Shown piece by piece: positions 41,633 to 51,575 of a stretch of DNA of 64,000 nt. The notes below the pieces were generated by a model. It saw only the letters and a list, made by a program, of their open reading frames with translations, was not told the DNA's origin and made no database searches. Within the stretch, counting starts at the first letter, position 1, and each line of letters starts with the position of its first letter. The position numbers were made by a program, and so were the translations under genes. This stretch comes from Modestobacter sp. VKM Ac-2984 (lineage in GTDB: Bacteria > Actinomycetota > Actinomycetes > Mycobacteriales > Geodermatophilaceae), in the NCBI RefSeq assembly GCF_026967985.1, contig NZ_JAPVBJ010000008.1, positions 186,001 to 250,000 of the forward strand, in the 5' to 3' direction.

Positions 41633-42799
41633 TCAGCCCAGCAGCTTCAGGATCCCCTGGGGGGCCTGGTTGGCCTGGGCCAGCATCGCGGTGCCGGCCT
41701 GGGTCAGGATCTGCGTGCGGGTGAAGTTGGTCATCTCCTGAGCCATGTCCGTGTCGCGGATCCGGCTCTCCGACGCCGACAGGTTCTCGACGGCGACGTT
41801 GAGGTTGTTGACCGTGTGCTCGAACCGGTTCTGGATGGCACCCAGGTCGGCGCGAGTGGTGGAGACCGACTTGATGGCCTCGTCGATCTTGCCGATCGCC
41901 TCGGAGGCGCCCGAGGCGGCGGTGAAGGACACCGTCGCGTCGGCCAGCTCCTGAGCGGTCGCCGGGTTCGGCGCAACGGCGCCGGTGAACGTCAGCCCCG
42001 TGGCGGTGTTGGCCACGGTGACCCCACCGGTGCCGAAGGCAGCGGTGAGCGCGGTCTGGATCTTGGTCGTCTTATCCCCGGCGGTGTCCGTCTCGGCGAA
42101 CTTGACCGAGGACAGGTCCACGCTCTTGCCGTTGTAGGAGATCGACCCGTTGAGGGTGTCGAACGCCGCTGCGGTGGTGTAGTCGTTCGCCGCACCGACG
42201 GTGGCCACCGACGACCCGCCGGCGGTGGCGGCGGTGTTCGTCCCGGTGGTGGCGGTGCCGGCCGCCGAGACGTCGACCCCCTCGACGCCCAGACCCTGGG
42301 CGCCCATGGACGTACCGATGCTGACGCCGATGGTCTCGCCGGCGTTGGCACCGACCTGGAAGGTGGTGTTGTAGTTGCCGTCCAGCAGCTGCTTGCCGTT
42401 GAAGTTCGTCGTGGTCGCGATCCGGTCCAGCTCGGACTTGAGCTGGCCGATCTCGGACTGGATGTTCTTCTTGGCGTCGCCGTTCAGCGAGCCCTCGTTG
42501 GAGGCCTGGACGGACAGGTCACGCATGCGCTGCAGGATCTTGTGCGTCTCGGTGAGCGCACCTTCAGCGGTCTGCACGACCGAGATGCCGTCCTGGGTGT
42601 TGCGGACGGCCATCTTGAGGCCACCGATCTGCGAGCGGAGGCCCTCGGAGATGGCCAGGCCCGCTGCGTCGTCGGCGGCGCGGTTGATGCGGAAGCCGGA
42701 GGAGAGCTTCTCCAGCGACTTGCTCATCTGACTGTCGGTGACCGACAGGTTGCGGTACGAGTTCATCGCCGCGATGTTGTTGTTGACGCTCAGACCCAT
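41633..42799 (-). CDS. fliC: Flagellin 1
   Basis: A 388-residue flagellin. The D0/D1 N-terminal half (VNNNIAAMNSYRNLSVTDSQ, then SGFRINRAADDAAGLAISEGLRSQIGGLK) and C-terminal half (VENLSASESRIRDTDMAQEM, then TQILTQAGTAMLAQANQAPQGILKLLG) are canonical; the middle (about 150-290) is Thr/Ala/Gly-rich and variable. It is nearly identical to flagellin 2 outside the centre, evidence of tandem duplication. Its leader carries a sigma-28-like promoter, a stem-loop with CGGA in the loop and CGGAGGA as ribosome site. Confidence 0.97.
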   Translation of the reverse strand: MGLSVNNNIAAMNSYRNLSVTDSQMSKSLEKLSSGFRINRAADDAAGLAISEGLRSQIGGLKMAVRNTQDGISVVQTAEGALTETHKILQRMRDLSVQASNEGSLNGDAKKNIQSEIGQLKSELDRIATTTNFNGKQLLDGNYNTTFQVGANAGETIGVSIGTSMGAQGLGVEGVDVSAAGTATTGTNTAATAGGSSVATVGAANDYTTAAAFDTLNGSISYNGKSVDLSSVKFAETDTAGDKTTKIQTALTAAFGTGGVTVANTATGLTFTGAVAPNPATAQELADATVSFTAASGASEAIGKIDEAIKSVSTTRADLGAIQNRFEHTVNNLNVAVENLSASESRIRDTDMAQEMTNFTRTQILTQAGTAMLAQANQAPQGILKLLG

Positions 42800-42832
42800 G
42801 GTGTTCCTCCGTGGAAGTGGGTTTCAGGGAAT

Positions 42833-42852
42833 CCGCTGCATCCGTGCTGCGG
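42833..42852 (-). promoter_or_regulatory. Candidate CsrA-binding stem-loop in the flagellin 1 leader
   Basis: Read on the minus strand: CCGCAGCA, loop CGGA, TGCAGCGG, with one A-A mismatch. CACGGATG closely matches the CsrA site core (ACANGGANGU). It lies 33 nt before the ATG and about 8 nt after the predicted transcription start; a second GGA is in the ribosome site CACGGAGGA. Confidence 0.65.
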
Positions 42853-42867
42853 GGTGTTGCAGTGCCA

Positions 42868-42895
42868 GGATCGGCGGGTGCGGGGTTGGTCTTGA
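42868..42895 (-). promoter_or_regulatory. Sigma-28-like promoter of flagellin 1
   Basis: On the minus strand TCAA (42895-42892), 16 bp, then GCCGATCC (42875-42868). It places the transcript start at about 42860, just before the leader stem-loop. Confidence 0.65.
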
Positions 42896-42975
42896 CCTGA
42901 AACCAGGACGAACTTCCGGAGGGCCCGGGGGCGGGTCCGTGGCGCTGCCGAGCGGCCCGAGCGGCCCGAGCGGCA

Positions 42976-43008
42976 GTGAGGGGGGGAGGCCGGGGCCTCC
43001 CCCCTCAC
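42976..43008 (-). terminator. Terminator after flagellin 2
   Basis: GTGAGGGGGGGAGGCC (42976-42991) pairs with GGCCTCCCCCCTCAC (42994-43008) with one extra G on one side. It is nearly the same sequence as the terminator after flagellin 1, so the duplication included the terminator. Confidence 0.7.
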
Positions 43009-43036
43009 CGGGTGGCGCTCAGGTGGTACGGGTCGA

Positions 43037-44209
43037 TCAGCCCAGCAGGCGCAGGATGCCCTGGGGTGCCTGGTTCGCCTGGGCCAGCATCGCGGTGCCG
43101 GCCTGGGTCAGGATCTGCGTGCGGGTGAAGTTGGTCATCTCCGACGCCATGTCCGTGTCGCGGATCCGGCTCTCCGACGCGGTCAGGTTCTCGACGGCGA
43201 CGTTGAGGTTGTTGACCGTGTGCTCGAACCGGTTCTGGATGGCACCCAGGTCGGCGCGCGTGGTGGAGACCGACTTGATGGCGTCGTCGATCTTGCCGAT
43301 CGCCAGGGAGGCACCCGAGGCGGCGGTGAAGGACACCGTCGCGTCGGCCAGCTGCTGGGCGGTTGCCGGGCTCGGCGCGACAGCACCGGTGAAGGTGAGG
43401 CCGGTCCCGCTGTCGGCCACGGTCACCCCGCCGGTACCGAAGGCGGCGTCGGCGGCGGCCTGCAGCTTGGTAAGTGCCTGGGCGGCGGTGTCGGTGGTGG
43501 CGTACTTGACCGAGGCCAGGTCCAGGCTCTTGCCGTTGTAGGAGATCGAGCCGTTGAGGGCGTCGAAGTCCGCGGTGGTGAGTGCGGCGCCGGCGGTGAC
43601 GGTGGCCACCGAGCGACCGCCGGCAGTTGCGGCGGTCGTGGTCGAGCCGACGCTGCCACCGGCGCCGTCGGCCAGCGAGACGTCGACGCCGTCGACGCCC
43701 AGGCCCTGGGCGCCCATCGCGGTGCCGATCCCGACGGCGATGGTCTCCCCGGCGTTGGCACCGACCTGGAAGGTGGTGTTGTACTTGCCGTCCAGCAGCT
43801 GCTTGCCGTTGAAGTTCGTCGTGTTCGCGATCCGGTCGAGCTCGGACTTGAGCTGACCGACCTCGGACTGGATGTTCTTCTTGGCGTCGGCGTTCAGCGA
43901 GCCCTCGTTGGAGGCCTGGACGGACAGGTCACGCATGCGCTGCAGGATCTTGTGCGTCTCGGTGAGCGCACCTTCAGCGGTCTGCACGACCGAGACGCCG
44001 TCCTGGGTGTTGCGGACGGCGACCTTGAGGCCACCGATCTGCGAGCGGAGGCCCTCGGAGATGGCCAGACCGGCGGCGTCGTCGGCGGCGCGGTTGATGC
44101 GGAAGCCGGAGGAGAGCTTCTCCAGCGACTTGCTCATCTGACTGTCGGTGATCGACAGGTTGCGGTACGAGTTCATCGCCGCGATGTTGTTGTTCACGGT
44201 CAGACCCAT
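43037..44209 (-). CDS. fliC: Flagellin 2
   Basis: A 390-residue flagellin and the close paralogue of flagellin 1; the first 150 and last 80 residues are almost the same (VNNNIAAMNSYRNLSITDSQ; SESRIRDTDMASEM; QAPQGILRLLG) while the centre differs. Ribosome site AAGGAGGA lies 8 nt before the ATG. It has its own sigma-28-like promoter, leader stem-loop and terminator, so the two genes can be expressed independently. Confidence 0.97.
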   Translation of the reverse strand: MGLTVNNNIAAMNSYRNLSITDSQMSKSLEKLSSGFRINRAADDAAGLAISEGLRSQIGGLKVAVRNTQDGVSVVQTAEGALTETHKILQRMRDLSVQASNEGSLNADAKKNIQSEVGQLKSELDRIANTTNFNGKQLLDGKYNTTFQVGANAGETIAVGIGTAMGAQGLGVDGVDVSLADGAGGSVGSTTTAATAGGRSVATVTAGAALTTADFDALNGSISYNGKSLDLASVKYATTDTAAQALTKLQAAADAAFGTGGVTVADSGTGLTFTGAVAPSPATAQQLADATVSFTAASGASLAIGKIDDAIKSVSTTRADLGAIQNRFEHTVNNLNVAVENLTASESRIRDTDMASEMTNFTRTQILTQAGTAMLAQANQAPQGILRLLG

Positions 44210-44235
44210 GAGGGGTTCCTCCTTGGACGGGGTGG

Positions 44236-44255
44236 CCGCGGCATCCGTGCCGCGG
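44236..44255 (-). promoter_or_regulatory. Candidate CsrA-binding stem-loop in the flagellin 2 leader
   Basis: Read on the minus strand: CCGCGGCA, loop CGGA, TGCCGCGG, a perfect 8-bp stem, 26 nt before the ATG and about 7 nt after the predicted transcript start. The ribosome site AAGGAGGA supplies a second GGA. Confidence 0.65.
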
Positions 44256-44269
44256 TCGTCGTACCCCTG

Positions 44270-44297
44270 TCAACGGAGCGGGTCGGCGGGTGCTTGA
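44270..44297 (-). promoter_or_regulatory. Sigma-28-like promoter of flagellin 2
   Basis: On the minus strand TCAA (44297-44294), 16 bp, then TCCGTTGA (44277-44270). The -10 box departs from GCCGATAA at three of eight positions, but spacing and distance to the leader stem-loop match flagellin 1. Confidence 0.5.
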
Positions 44298-44319
44298 GGG
44301 CCTCCCGGCGATGTCCCCC

Positions 44320-44340
44320 GAACGGGTGGGTCACCCGTTC
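44320..44340 (-). terminator. Short stem-loop at the flagellin 3 stop
   Basis: GAACGGGTG (44320-44328) and CACCCGTTC (44332-44340) form a 9-bp stem with a 3-nt loop that overlaps the flagellin 3 stop codon. It is weaker than the other two flagellin terminators. Confidence 0.5.
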
Positions 44341-45160
44341 AGCGCAGCAGTTGCAGCACCCCACGCGGCGACTGGTTCGCCTGGGCGGCCATCGCCGTGC
44401 CGGCCTGGGTGAGGATCGACGTCCGGCTCATCGTGGTCGTCTCGGCCGCGATGTCGGCGTCCCGGATCCGGCTCTCCGAGGCAGCGGTGTTGTCCACTGC
44501 CACGCCCAGCTTGGCGATGTTGTGCTCGAACCGGTTCTGCACGGCACCGAGGTCGGCGCGGGCGGTGGACACCTGCCCGATCGCCGCGTCGATCGCCGCC
44601 AGCGCCGTGGACGGTCCGGTCGGAGAGGTGACGTCCACGCCGGCGACGCCCAGGCCGGCGGCGTCCATCGCCGGCCCGAAGCCGACGGTGATCGTGTGCC
44701 CGGCGTCCGCGCCCACCTGGAAGGTCCCGCGGTAGCTGCCGTCCAGGAGCTTCCGGCCGTTGAAGGACGTCGTGTCCGCGATCCGGTCGAGCTCGGCCCG
44801 CAGCTGCCCGATCTCGGTCTGCACGTTCGCCCGGGCGGCGTCGTCCAGCCCGCCGGTGTTCGCCGCCTGGACGGCGAGGTCCCGCATCCGGTGCAGCAGG
44901 GAGTGGGTCTCGGTGAGCGCACCCTCGGCGGTCTGCAGCACCGAGATGCCGTCCTGGCTGTTGCGCAGCGCGACCTTGAGCCCGCCGATCTGGGTGCGCA
45001 GGCCCTCGGCGATCCCCAGACTGGCGGCGTCGTCGGCGGCGCGGTTGATCCGCAGGCCGGAGGACAGCCGCTCGATCGACGTGCTCTGTTGCCGATCGGC
45101 GATGCCGAGGACCCGGGCTGAGTTCAGCCCGGTGATGTTGCTGTTGACGACCAGGCTCAT
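44339..45160 (-). CDS. fliC: Flagellin 3 (short, 273 residues)
   Basis: A short flagellin consisting almost only of the D0/D1 halves: VNSNITGLNSARVLGIADRQ, SGLRINRAADDAASLGIAEGLRTQIGGLK, then VDNTAASESRIRDADIAAET and TSILTQAGTAMAAQANQSPRGVLQLLR. The central outer domain is almost absent. It is divergent from flagellins 1 and 2, so it is an older paralogue and not part of the recent duplication. Its leader stem-loop has lost the GGA in the loop. It is the first flagellin after fliA. Confidence 0.95.
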   Translation of the reverse strand: MSLVVNSNITGLNSARVLGIADRQQSTSIERLSSGLRINRAADDAASLGIAEGLRTQIGGLKVALRNSQDGISVLQTAEGALTETHSLLHRMRDLAVQAANTGGLDDAARANVQTEIGQLRAELDRIADTTSFNGRKLLDGSYRGTFQVGADAGHTITVGFGPAMDAAGLGVAGVDVTSPTGPSTALAAIDAAIGQVSTARADLGAVQNRFEHNIAKLGVAVDNTAASESRIRDADIAAETTTMSRTSILTQAGTAMAAQANQSPRGVLQLLR

Positions 45161-45193
45161 GCGGGCCCTCCGTGGACCGGGAACGAGAAGGAA

Positions 45194-45213
45194 CCGCCGC
45201 AGCCGTGCGGCGG
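45194..45213 (-). promoter_or_regulatory. Leader stem-loop of flagellin 3, loop CGGC
   Basis: Read on the minus strand: CCGCCGCA, loop CGGC, TGCGGCGG, a perfect 8-bp stem at the same place as in the other two leaders (33 nt before the ATG). Stem bases differ from flagellin 2 but pairing is kept. The CsrA core GGA is GGC here; the ribosome site CACGGAGGG still has GGA. Confidence 0.6.
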
Positions 45214-48349: not shown

Positions 48350-49261
48350 ATGCGGATCACCCAGCGCTCGCTCGCCGTCACCGCACTGCAGGGCCTCAAC
48401 CGCAACCAGGAGGCCATCGCCAAGCTGCAGGCGCAGCTGACCTCGGGCAAGACCATCAACAAGCCCTCCGACGACCCCACCGGCACGAACGCCGCGATGC
48501 AGACCCGCCAGGAGCTCGCCGGTGCTGCGCAGTACGCCCGGAACATCAACGACGGGATCGGCCTGCTCGACGCCACGGACTCCGCCCTGCAGAACATGAT
48601 CAAGCAGGTGCAGAACGTGCGCGCCCTGACCGTCAAGGGACTCAACGCCGGCACCCTGTCCGATGCCTCGGCGATGGCCATCTCGACCGAGGTCTCCGGC
48701 ATCCGAGGGAGCCTCCTGGGGCTGGCCAACACCACGGTGCAGGGGAAGCCCGTCTTCGGCGGGGTCACGAGCGACTCCTCCGCCTACGACGTCGCCACCG
48801 GCGGCTACCAGGGGTTCGGTGGCACCACCGTGCCGCCGGTGCCGGTCATCCCGGTGAACCGGCAGGTCTCCGACGCGGACTCGATCCGGGTCGACCTCAC
48901 CGGGCCCGAGGCGTTCGGCGACCCGGCGACCGGGGACCTGTTCGCGATCGTCCAGGCCATCGCCACCGACGTCGTCGCGGACCCGGCCGCCCTCGCCGGC
49001 CACCTGCAGGAGCTGGATGCCGCGCTCAACCGGATGCTGACCGCGGTGGCCGACATCGGTACGCGCACGAACCGGATCGAGACGGCACAGCAGGTGAACA
49101 AGGACCTGCAGCTGTCGTTGACCAGCAGGTCCTCGGTCATCGAGAACGTCGACCTGCCCAAGACGATCATGAACCTGCAGATGCAGCAGGTCGGCTACGA
49201 GGCCGCGCTGGGGGCCACCGCGAAGGCCATCCAGCCCACTCTGCTGGACTTCCTGCGCTGA
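48350..49261 (+). CDS. flgL: Flagellar hook-associated protein 3 FlgL
   Basis: A 303-residue flagellin-like junction protein. The N-terminus MRITQRSLAVTALQGLNRNQ, then LQAQLTSGKTINKPSDDPTG, is the FlgL signature; the C-terminal helix VIENVDLPKTIMNLQMQQVGYEAALGATAKAIQPTLLDFL in blocks completes it. It begins 4 bp after flgK. A strong hairpin follows 51 bp after its stop. Confidence 0.95.
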   Translation: MRITQRSLAVTALQGLNRNQEAIAKLQAQLTSGKTINKPSDDPTGTNAAMQTRQELAGAAQYARNINDGIGLLDATDSALQNMIKQVQNVRALTVKGLNAGTLSDASAMAISTEVSGIRGSLLGLANTTVQGKPVFGGVTSDSSAYDVATGGYQGFGGTTVPPVPVIPVNRQVSDADSIRVDLTGPEAFGDPATGDLFAIVQAIATDVVADPAALAGHLQELDAALNRMLTAVADIGTRTNRIETAQQVNKDLQLSLTSRSSVIENVDLPKTIMNLQMQQVGYEAALGATAKAIQPTLLDFLR

Positions 49262-49340: not shown

Positions 49341-49402
49341 GGTCCCGCCGACCGGCGGGGCGATGCCACGGACGGCCCACACGAACCCATGGAGGGGTAC
49401 CC

Positions 49403-49651
49403 ATGCTCACTCTCACCCGCAGCGTCGGCGAGAGCATCCGGATCGGCGAGGACATCGAGGTCTACGTCGTCGAGGTCCGCGGCGGGACCGTGCGACTGGG
49501 CTTCAAGGCCCCGCGCGAGGTGACGATCCACCGCGAAGAGGTCTACAAGCAGATCGCCGAGGCGCAGAGCCTGGCCGCTGAAGTGGCCGCCGACGCACTG
49601 GGCGCCTTGGCGGCATTTGCACCAGGACCTGATCAGCCGACTGGCAAGTAA
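49403..49651 (+). CDS. csrA: Carbon storage / flagellin translation regulator CsrA
   Basis: An 82-residue RNA-binding protein. MLTLTRSVGESIRIGEDIEV, then RGGTVRLGFKAPREVTIHREEVYKQI, contains the family RNA-binding residues (N-terminal LTLTR and the APREV Arg near position 44). It extends about 20 residues beyond the usual 60. GGAGGGG precedes the ATG. In Bacillus subtilis CsrA represses hag translation by binding a leader stem-loop and the ribosome site; the flagellin leaders here have both elements. FliW, the usual antagonist, is not encoded in the window. Confidence 0.95.
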   Translation: MLTLTRSVGESIRIGEDIEVYVVEVRGGTVRLGFKAPREVTIHREEVYKQIAEAQSLAAEVAADALGALAAFAPGPDQPTGK

Positions 49652-49793
49652 TGCCATCAGGTCGCCCGATACGGCGCAATAACAGCTCACCCCAGCCGTC
49701 ACAGTAGTCACAGGGCGGCGAGTCTCGCCGTCCGAGGCACCGATCGTGCGCAAGTCTTCCCCCAACGCACCACGGTTACAGGGGGAGACGAAC

Positions 49794-50378
49794 ATGGAAC
49801 TCAGCGCATTCGCATCGGGCCCGGCAGACAGCGTCGAGCTGTCGGTCGACCTGCGCGTCGGGCCGTCCGGCGCCGACGACCTGCGTCTCCGTGAGGCCGT
49901 CGACGGCTCCTTCGATGAGCCGGCCGCCGCGGGCGCGGCCTGGTCGGAGACGGTCGTGGTGCACGTCCAGCTGCGCCCCCGCCGGCCGGCCACCCGCCGG
50001 TGCCTGGCCGCCCTCACCGCGCTGGCTGCCCGGCACGAGTCGGTGGCCTTCGCGCTGACCGGCCTCAGCGGCGACGACCGCGCCGTCCGGATCACCGTCG
50101 GCGTCGAGCTCGGTCCCCGCGAGCTGATCGCGAAGTTCTCCGACCAGGCGCAGGCCGCCTACGCCTTCGTGGACGGGCTCTTCACCGACCTCTACGACTT
50201 CATGCCGGTCTACGTCGCCGAGCCGAGCGAGGTCGAGCGCGCCGCGGCCGCCGGTGTGCTCGAGGCCGTCGAGACGCCCCGGCCCCGCATGCCGGCCCCG
50301 CGCATCCCCTCGCCCCGCCGTCCCTCCGGTGACAGCGTCCACGCCCCCGCCCGCCGCGGGGTGCCCGCCCTCGTCTGA
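49794..50378 (+). CDS. Unknown protein downstream of csrA
   Basis: A 194-residue protein that I do not recognise. GGGGGAG lies before the ATG. It reads as one compact acidic domain to about residue 150 (strands such as SVELSVDLRVG and ETVVVHVQLRPR, then KFSDQAQAAYAFVDGLFTDLYDFMPVYVAEPSEVE) followed by a Pro/Arg-rich tail. No membrane segment or signal peptide is seen. It lies between csrA and the sigma-like gene, and may be co-regulated with them. Its position makes it a candidate partner of CsrA, but no sequence link to FliW was found. Confidence 0.6.
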   Translation: MELSAFASGPADSVELSVDLRVGPSGADDLRLREAVDGSFDEPAAAGAAWSETVVVHVQLRPRRPATRRCLAALTALAARHESVAFALTGLSGDDRAVRITVGVELGPRELIAKFSDQAQAAYAFVDGLFTDLYDFMPVYVAEPSEVERAAAAGVLEAVETPRPRMPAPRIPSPRRPSGDSVHAPARRGVPALV

Positions 50379-50477: not shown

Positions 50478-51575
50478 GTGTCCCAGGACATGTTCACCGC
50501 ACAGCTCGCCACCGACGCCGCCCGCACCCGTGAACCGCTGGTGTTCGGCGAGCTCACCGAGGCCGAGGGCTGGGCGCTGGCCCCGATCACCCCCCGCGAT
50601 CGGGTGCACTTCCGCACCGACCGGGAGCTGCCGCTGGACACCTTCCGGGCGGCCCTGCCGGCCGAGGTCACGGTGACCTACGACGAGGGCGACGGCCTGT
50701 ACCGGGTCGACGGCGAGACCGGGACGGCCGAGGAGCTCGCCGGCCTGATCCGCGCCTGGTGCGCCACCGAGGGCTACGCGACGGTCGGGCTGCGGCCGGA
50801 GACCGGCGTGCGCCGCCGGGCACCCCGCGACCTGCCCGCCGCCTTCCTCGACGGGCTGTGCCGGCACTACTGCCGGGTCAGCCTCAGGCGCCTGCAGCGG
50901 AACATGAGCACCATCCGGCTGCACCTGCCCGACAACGACGACGTCGACCAGCAGGTGGCCGAGTGGGTGCTGAAGGCGGTGAGCCAGTACGACGAGACCA
51001 AGTCCGTCCCCTTCGGCGCCTTCCTGGCGACCCAGCTCTCCAAGTGGGTCCACGACCTGGGGCGCAACGCCTACGGCCGGACCGCGGCCGACACGGAGAA
51101 CAAGCAGCAGAAGGCGGTCGCTGCGTTCACCGCGGAGCACCAGCGCCGGCCCAGCGAGAAGGAGCTGGCTGCCTACATGGGCCAGAGCGTGGCCACGCTG
51201 CGCCGCAACTCCCAGACCGTCGCCACCCTGAACGGCCTGCGCAACCTGCAGTCCCTGGACGGCGGGGCGGACACGGTGGAGTTCGTGGTCCCCGACAGCG
51301 CCGAGGTGCCCGACGAGATCATGGGCGAGGCCGAGCAGAGCCTGCTGTCGCACGCCCTGACCGCCGCGTGCGCACCCGACCCGACCGCCCGCCGGGACCA
51401 GCGGGCGGCCCAGCCGAACGTGCTGGGCTGGGCGACCTGGTACCTGACGACCTGGGGCGGGCAGACCAAGACGCAGCTGTCGGCCGACCTGGGCACGTCG
51501 GTGCGCAACATGAACGTGCACGCCGACCGCGCCGAGAAGGCCCTCAAGGACCGCCTCTCCGAGCTGGGCGGCTGA
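50478..51575 (+). CDS. Divergent sigma-70 family protein with N-terminal extension
   Basis: A 365-residue protein whose C-terminal two thirds resemble a sigma factor. Region 2-like: VDQQVAEWVLKAVSQYDETKSVPFGAFLATQLSKWVHDLGR (about 155-195). Region 3-like: AFTAEHQRRPSEKELAAYMGQSVATLRRNSQ (about 215-245). Region 4-like: a helix-turn-helix around LTTWGGQTKTQLSADLGTSVRNMNVHADRAEKAL near the end. The first 110 residues form an extra domain unknown to me. AGGAGGA lies before the GTG. It may direct a second flagellar or envelope regulon, or be a sigma-derived regulator. Confidence 0.7.
   Translation: MSQDMFTAQLATDAARTREPLVFGELTEAEGWALAPITPRDRVHFRTDRELPLDTFRAALPAEVTVTYDEGDGLYRVDGETGTAEELAGLIRAWCATEGYATVGLRPETGVRRRAPRDLPAAFLDGLCRHYCRVSLRRLQRNMSTIRLHLPDNDDVDQQVAEWVLKAVSQYDETKSVPFGAFLATQLSKWVHDLGRNAYGRTAADTENKQQKAVAAFTAEHQRRPSEKELAAYMGQSVATLRRNSQTVATLNGLRNLQSLDGGADTVEFVVPDSAEVPDEIMGEAEQSLLSHALTAACAPDPTARRDQRAAQPNVLGWATWYLTTWGGQTKTQLSADLGTSVRNMNVHADRAEKALKDRLSELGG

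Follow-up and report, generated by a model that had tools for sequence, protein, structure and literature searches.

A covarying, CsrA-type two-site leader before flagellin genes of Modestobacter, in which FliW is not found, and of other flagellated Actinomycetes

In Bacillus subtilis, the leader of the flagellin gene hag carries two CsrA sites, one of them on the Shine-Dalgarno sequence (PMC7652899; PMC6529632), and in Campylobacter jejuni the flagellin gene flaA is preceded by two ANGGA stem-loops, the second over the ribosome site, with compensatory changes (PMC4894983). Bridging of the two sites by CsrA with exclusion of the ribosome has been shown for both leaders, and the ANGGAN hexaloop is the form present in high-affinity targets bound to RsmE (PMC7652899). 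Here, the leaders of three flagellin genes and of csrA are considered in a stretch of 64,000 nucleotides (the window, which denotes the whole stretch analysed) lying in a flagellar cluster of the 4.56-Mb genome of Modestobacter sp. VKM Ac-2984 (assembly rated 100% complete). By the sequence features tested, the Modestobacter leaders belong with the two-site CsrA leaders of flagellin genes, and comparison among relatives indicates that a covarying leader of this kind is widespread in flagellated Actinomycetes. Unlike in B. subtilis, FliW was not found in Modestobacter and several flagellin paralogs carry graded sites; unlike in C. jejuni, where FliW is the main antagonist (PMC4894983), no FliW was found and a covarying stem-loop is seen at the first site only.

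The original prediction, made from the window alone, had not known such two-site control to be described in actinobacteria, where CsrA control is not wholly undescribed, as it was proposed in 2008 for the flagellin Krad1626 of Kineococcus radiotolerans upon a match of nine of 12 bases to binding site 2 (BS2) of hag (PMC2587704). In the accessible text of that paper, the proposal concerns one site in one genome and comes without an upstream hairpin, covariation, the csrA leader or the question of FliW (PMC2587704). Neither the conserved hairpin nor the csrA leader nor the loss of FliW was found described in the open literature, subscription papers being largely outside the search.

The stem-loop read by the original prediction in all three flagellin leaders is real and located where it had been placed, perfect in flagellins 2 and 3 and with one mismatch in flagellin 1, with 33, 26 and 33 nt separating its end from the ATG in flagellins 1, 2 and 3, within the 26–33 nt first given. 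Equally, the loops read CGGA in flagellins 1 and 2 (CGGC in flagellin 3), and the GGA noticed at all three ribosome sites is part of CANGGANG. The motif is better described as CANGGANG, an ANGGAN hexaloop with a C-G closing pair, which flagellins 1 and 2 possess twice, once in the hairpin and once on the Shine-Dalgarno sequence, and flagellin 3 on the Shine-Dalgarno sequence only. The E values below refer to R1, a covariance model built on 44 leaders, with the leaders of the window, and possibly others among its hits, in the training set.

42833..42852, minus strand: putative binding site 1 (BS1) of flagellin 1, formed by the hairpin CCGCAGC-ACGGAT-GCAGCGG with one A.A mismatch, read from the sequence (R1 E value 2.6e-9, training-set member)
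42806..42813, minus strand: BS2 of flagellin 1, CACGGAGG overlapping the Shine-Dalgarno sequence, read from the sequence
44236..44255, minus strand: BS1 of flagellin 2, hairpin CCGCGGC-ACGGAT-GCCGCGG with a perfect stem, read from the sequence (R1 E value 2.5e-11, training-set member)
44218..44225, minus strand: BS2 of flagellin 2, CAAGGAGG overlapping the Shine-Dalgarno sequence, read from the sequence
45194..45213, minus strand: hairpin of flagellin 3, perfect stem, loop ACGGCT (GGA changed to GGC), read from the sequence; predicted weak or lost CsrA site
45167..45174, minus strand: BS2 of flagellin 3, CACGGAGG overlapping the Shine-Dalgarno sequence, read from the sequence

The A.A mismatch of flagellin 1 is the usual state in the family Geodermatophilaceae (CCCGCAGC-ACGGAT-GCAGCGGG) and not decay. 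Genome-wide, the two-site pattern CACGGANG-N10-40-CANGGANG has eight matches, three of which are flagellin 1, flagellin 2 and csrA, compared with three matches for the reversed pattern as a control; the remaining five appear intragenic, without leader context, and were rejected as targets. As the folding energies of the three flagellin leaders taken singly are unexceptional (z −0.98, −1.56 and −0.66), the evidence for the hairpin is comparative. Of 131 leaders (two of them Firmicute), 119 have a sigma-28-like NCCG[AT] element 5–24 nt 5′ of the hairpin, versus 22% upon shuffling; the element that the script picked before flagellins 2 and 3 in the window has a poor −35 partner, and the transcript starts are predictions only.

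Eighty flagellin loci were gathered by protein similarity and 89 leaders read, including the three of the window. With differing stems (CCGCAGC/GCAGCGG, GGAGCCC/GGGCTCC, CCGGCCC/GGGCCGG and others) the hairpin is common to Modestobacter, Blastococcus, Nocardioides, Cellulomonas, Sanguibacter, Demequina, Microbacteriaceae and Dactylosporangium. Covariation was scored on 56 hand-picked hairpins and subsequently on all 69 distinct actinobacterial ones, the two Firmicute hairpins among 71 being excluded. In the 69 hairpins all eight stem pairs covary, both sides changing, with a score of 0.554 versus 0.160 ± 0.018 in shuffled and at most 0.192 in slid controls, the two outermost pairs being unpaired in 35 and 23 hairpins, respectively. 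The variable pair cited by the original prediction as a sign of selection on structure does indeed switch from G-C in flagellin 2 to C-G in flagellin 3; the strong covariation is, however, found between genera and not between these paralogs.

The alignment took from each leader the best-pairing A-N-G-G-[A/C] site, a rule which favours stems and fixes three loop bases, and which provided no candidate in six entries (four from Firmicutes, plus the two readings of a single flagellin-3 leader in genome G092). At the position where the rule admitted A or C, A follows GG in 66 of the 69 hairpins while every stem pair varies. Upon shuffling of the flanks 2.7% reach five of six inner pairs versus 74% of the 69 real rows, a row set from which L087 and L094 were dropped and in which the Firmicute L108 and L109 were included. 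Pairing is poor, or the placement different, in a few actinobacterial leaders (L067, L068 and L083). A loop closed by A-U instead of C-G is seen in L067 and L078 (Actinomycetaceae and Ilumatobacteraceae).

As controls within the family served 283 leaders of fliD, flgL, fliS, flgK and flgN from the same 61 loci. Under a single ANGGA rule for both classes, with GGC loops excluded, an ANGGAN hairpin with at least five of six inner pairs 27–72 nt before the start is present in 67 of 75 flagellin leaders and in none of the 283 controls. In the same interval the upstream CANGGANG is found in 68/75 versus 3/283 leaders, and on the Shine-Dalgarno sequence CANGGANG is found in 65/75 (3/3 in the window) versus 5/283; the Fisher values for the flagellin-versus-control counts, 5e-61 and 3e-54, overstate, as rows share ancestry. 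The 75 leaders result from merging duplicates per locus, with no flagellin start obtained from L135 and L157, and of the seven without the upstream motif six precede flagellin 3 and one precedes an odd flagellin of L173. The covariance comparison named as a check of the original prediction has thus turned out in its favour, with the stem-loop retained and covarying in relatives and no hairpin at the control genes of the same loci. The Shine-Dalgarno sequence of fliD in the window also reads CANGGANG; as this holds for 1/47 family fliD leaders, it is attributed to chance and fliD was rejected as an extra target.

Across a class sample of 296 genomes, R1 has 38 matches at E ≤ 1e-5, spread over 25 genomes, and 35 of the 38 are located at most 60 nt directly before a Flagellin_N match. 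CsrA is encoded by 24 of the 25 R1-positive genomes versus 37 of all 296, the exception, G134, being an 80% complete assembly. Within the window genome the top three R1 matches are the three leaders (2.5e-11, 2.6e-9 and 1.7e-7), themselves training data, and the next is at 0.0155. In the class sample CsrA is found in 37, FliW in 35, Flagellin_N over the cut-off in 38 and all three in 34 genomes. The window genome is the only one of the 296 with Flagellin_N and CsrA but without FliW; CsrA occurs with neither FliW nor Flagellin_N over the cut-off in G216 and G352, Flagellin_N without CsrA in G134, G143 and G380, and FliW without CsrA in G180. Together with the leader comparison, these data support the CsrA interpretation of the original prediction.

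The csrA gene of the window is itself preceded by two elements of the CsrA type.

49365..49376, plus strand: upstream CsrA-type element of csrA, GCC-ACGGAC-GGC, from family comparison
49385..49398, plus strand: hairpin with the csrA Shine-Dalgarno sequence, ACCC-ATGGAG-GGGT, from family comparison, present in the minimum-energy fold

Among 61 family csrA leaders, the upstream element has a stem of at least three pairs (loop of 5 or 6) in 48, with 0/9 in genus g9, and the Shine-Dalgarno hairpin has a stem of at least three pairs in 60 and is exactly ACCC-A[TC]GGAG-GGGT in 59. These elements occur in loci with or without FliW. As a whole, the window csrA leader folds no better than shuffled sequences (z +1.15). 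In family f15 (G123 and G146), the csrA leaders, judged by eye, have differing sequences and the same plan. Autoregulation of csrA in Modestobacter is therewith probable, and, if so, csrA could outlast the loss of fliW. It would resemble the situation in Escherichia coli, where CsrA represses its own translation (PMC7652899); unlike in E. coli, the csrA Shine-Dalgarno sequence in Modestobacter is placed in a C-ANGGAN-G hexaloop, and no CsrB/C-type RNA is known, such an RNA having been sought in the window only. In B. subtilis, csrA is translationally coupled to fliW (PMC6529632), whereas in Modestobacter it has its own leader.

The window genome has no match to the FliW model Pfam PF02623, a model which itself finds 35 class and 67 family genomes. 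In the family, csrA is present in 100 of 112 genomes; 108 of the 112 were sampled for FliW, and 67 have it (66 over the cut-off), every one belonging to g2, g3, g4, g10, g11 or g12. Within the same sample no match was obtained in Modestobacter (g1), g5 and g9, and 41 genomes are without a match, 20 of the 41 being listed. In the 61 csrA loci read from the 100 csrA-bearing genomes, the window included, fliW adjoins csrA in 30 and is not found in the stretch in 31 (21 of g1, one of g5 and nine of g9). As the order flgL-fliW-csrA is also seen in Nocardioides, Dactylosporangium and Acidothermaceae, gene order suggests that it is ancestral.

48350..49261, plus strand: flgL, by Pfam and synteny; the interval to csrA is without fliW here and contains fliW in FliW-positive relatives
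49403..49651, plus strand: csrA, 82 aa, Pfam 1.2e-24, sole csrA found in the genome; its product retains L4 and R44 and has glutamine at residue 55

In C. jejuni, CsrA needs residue N55 to bind FliW, and in B. subtilis the substitution N55D blocks this binding (PMC7829508). In the family, residue 55 is N in 30/30 FliW-positive versus 14/31 FliW-negative genomes (Fisher 7e-7, uncorrected for ancestry), the latter having 14 N, six Q and one R in g1, Q in g5 and nine R in g9. Elsewhere in the class sample it is N in 33/33 scored FliW-positive genomes, with G225, one of 34, missed by the script and N by eye, and a residue other than N in the two FliW-negative genomes (G216 and G352), which combines to 63/63 versus 14/33. 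The additional CsrA of G399, taken to be a paralog, was left out of this count, and L230 (G119), among the 33, has a family-like CsrA. The proteins without N55 outside the family (L214, L215 and L216, that is G216, G352 and the second CsrA of G399) possibly belong to non-flagellar CsrA lineages. L4 and R44, which we take to be RNA-binding residues, are unchanged in 61/61 family proteins; as residue 55 varies in FliW-negative genomes, CsrA seems to retain RNA binding while its contact to FliW has relaxed. In g9 (L152–L160) several changes coincide: FliW is not found, residue 55 is R, the flagellin Shine-Dalgarno motif and the upstream csrA element are absent and the flagellin hairpin is kept. 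Judged by the missing FliW match and Q55, the circuit of the window genome falls outside the class of CsrA-FliW partner switches. The parallel to B. subtilis drawn originally holds for the two-site leader and its co-occurrence with CsrA, and not with respect to FliW, which is not found in the genus.

Cumulatively, it is probable in our assessment that CsrA represses flagellins 1 and 2 via two sites and is released without FliW by csrA autoregulation and mRNA titration. A CsrA dimer would dock on the ANGGAN hexaloop hairpin just 3′ of the sigma-28-type transcript start and bridge from there to CANGGANG on the Shine-Dalgarno sequence, thereby excluding the ribosome. The csrA mRNA, possessing like sites, probably restricts its own translation. 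Modestobacter deserti is reported to be motile with polar flagella (PMC8602919) and thus, if CsrA represses, the repression must be relieved. We infer that this release is independent of any flagellin-export-sensing protein in Modestobacter. Most likely, the csrA leader would keep CsrA scarce and the abundant sigma-28-driven flagellin mRNAs would titrate it, so that CsrA would set a threshold on flagellin mRNA. In C. jejuni, the flagellin mRNA itself can titrate CsrA (PMC4894983).

Several observations weigh against this proposal. In g9, which is FliW-negative, CANGGANG is on the Shine-Dalgarno sequence of 0/8 flagellin leaders, which reads CCAGGAGG, with the hairpin kept in 8/8, and in Nocardioides the Shine-Dalgarno site is CCAGGA in 7/8 and CANGGANG in 1/8 leaders, so that the second site is not universal. 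The invariance of loop A, G and G in the aligned set is forced by the site rule and is no evidence. R1 has no match at 1e-5 in 11 of the 35 class genomes that possess both CsrA and a Flagellin_N match; some of the 11 may lack a flagellin in the assembly, as the Flagellin_N model also matches FlgL. The upstream csrA element is absent from the single-sequence minimum-energy fold. N55 is still present in 14/21 Modestobacter CsrA proteins, with Q55 in the window genome. A profile of nine actinobacterial FliW proteins gave no genome match at E ≤ 10, an empty search without a positive control. Finally, the sequence data are just as compatible with an antagonist that escaped detection, be it a protein or an RNA sponge.

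Such an antagonist could have replaced FliW in Modestobacter, g5 and g9, either as a CsrB-like sponge RNA or as an unrelated CsrA-binding protein, which we hold to be a tangible, if somewhat doubtful, possibility. It is in line with the persistence of CsrA and the hairpin sites without FliW and with the report that 340 of 346 genomes with CsrA have either FliW or BarA-UvrY and not both (PMC4682653), yet no Rfam match above the gathering score was obtained in the window, the rest of the genome not having been searched for a sponge, and the two genes 3′ of csrA are not obvious candidates and were rejected as FliW replacements, being present in 61/61 family loci, FliW-positive ones included. These two genes (49746–50378 and 50478–51575, plus strand) are without a Pfam match. 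With respect to the history of fliW, an outgroup-rooted tree of five cluster proteins (43 of 65 aligned taxa, thinned, FastTree) branches off g9 first, g5 next and then the rest, and a single FliW-negative clade is rejected (p-AU 0.015 with 2000 replicates, flagged by the program as too few), which requires at least two losses of fliW or one loss with regain. The number of losses is uncertain, as the outgroup tree does not recover Modestobacter as a clade, with two genomes joining g10 (0.97), most others joining these two (0.63) and G089 in the FliW-positive clade (0.99); in the midpoint-rooted tree without outgroup, Modestobacter is one clade (0.998). A single loss at the base of the family with regain in the FliW-positive clade would need two events, compared with two or three losses, and agrees with the branching order and the rejected clade; nevertheless it appears unlikely, as a regained fliW must re-enter the ancestral slot between flgL and csrA and the majority of Modestobacter proteins keep N55.

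Alternatively, CsrA on the 5′-end hairpin may shield the flagellin mRNA from decay, a positive control comparable to E. coli flhDC, the stabilisation of which is cited in PMC2587704, with repression at the Shine-Dalgarno sequence secondary or absent. The position of the hairpin close behind the predicted transcript start, its conservation in all g9 leaders in spite of the missing Shine-Dalgarno motif and the retention of CsrA where FliW is not found would be in agreement; protection does not, however, need CANGGANG exactly on the Shine-Dalgarno sequence, where the large majority of family flagellin leaders have it, and the same arrangement of sites is displayed by csrA, so that we regard protection as rather improbable. 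Even less is to be said for a hairpin independent of CsrA, a 5′ stabiliser or transcription feature with an incidental GGA, which we consider very improbable: flagellin 3 and the distant flagellins of G086, G090 and G103 do keep the stem with GGA changed to GGC or GGT, but these GGC hairpins are nearly one sequence and may merely share descent, the upstream CANGGANG distinguishes flagellin leaders from controls, the A after GG is maintained against variation of all stem pairs, and R1 matches are associated with CsrA. Two-site repression by CsrA with release in the absence of FliW is hence retained as the probable interpretation.

The flagellin paralogs differ in their sites. In the cluster, the three flagellin genes are on the minus strand and flgN, flgK, flgL and csrA on the plus strand; csrA of B. 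subtilis is likewise located in the flagellar cluster.

41633..42799, minus strand: flagellin 1 gene, 388 aa, Pfam Flagellin_N 1.6e-46 and Flagellin_C 5.7e-32
43037..44209, minus strand: flagellin 2 gene, 390 aa, by Pfam
44339..45160, minus strand: flagellin 3 gene, 273 aa, by Pfam

The loop of flagellin 3 is GGC in the window genome (G000) and in G090, G101, G102 and G103, and CGAC in G092, while in G106 GGA is kept and the stem altered (CCCACCGC/GCGGTGGG). A fourth flagellin of the window genome is encoded outside the window (L251, G000:C21:79294-80853, 520 aa, GTG start), and in its leader neither the hairpin nor ANGGA was found. Distant flagellins similar to the fourth are present in some other Modestobacter genomes. 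Eight distant flagellin leaders were read: in three the stem comes with GGC or GGT (G086, one of two in G090, and G103), in one GGA is present (G106), and in four neither is seen. In the leaders of the distant flagellins L254, L255 and L256 the stem CCGCCGC/GCGGCG is kept with loop GGC or GGT as in flagellin 3, and a second flagellin-like gene of the FliW-positive genome G028 (L173, position 5302) is without either site. By its loop, flagellin 3 should bind CsrA poorly at the upstream site. As leader mutants of C. jejuni flaA have a four- to tenfold higher Kd for CsrA (PMC4894983), flagellin 3 and paralogs with GGC, GGT or no site should, by analogy, partly escape CsrA. Flagellin 3, with the loop GGA lost and the Shine-Dalgarno site kept, and the fourth flagellin, with no site, would thus be partly or wholly outside control.

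More tentatively, Modestobacter and two further genera of the family may run a CsrA switch free of FliW, in which autoregulation buffers, flagellin mRNAs titrate and paralogs respond at different thresholds through natural changes in loop and sites; the gradation of paralogs in such a threshold reading would be two with full sites, one with GGC and one with none. Later actinobacterial classes are reported to be without FlgM (PMC10746217). If the FliW-free switch is true and FlgM is lacking, the flagellum would be built without either known filament checkpoint. Three genera with CsrA and hairpin sites, in which FliW is not found and the contact residue is relaxed, represent a natural deletion experiment, which raises the question whether FliW is needed for release or whether autoregulation and mRNA titration suffice, with the graded leaders of the paralogs as natural test constructs.

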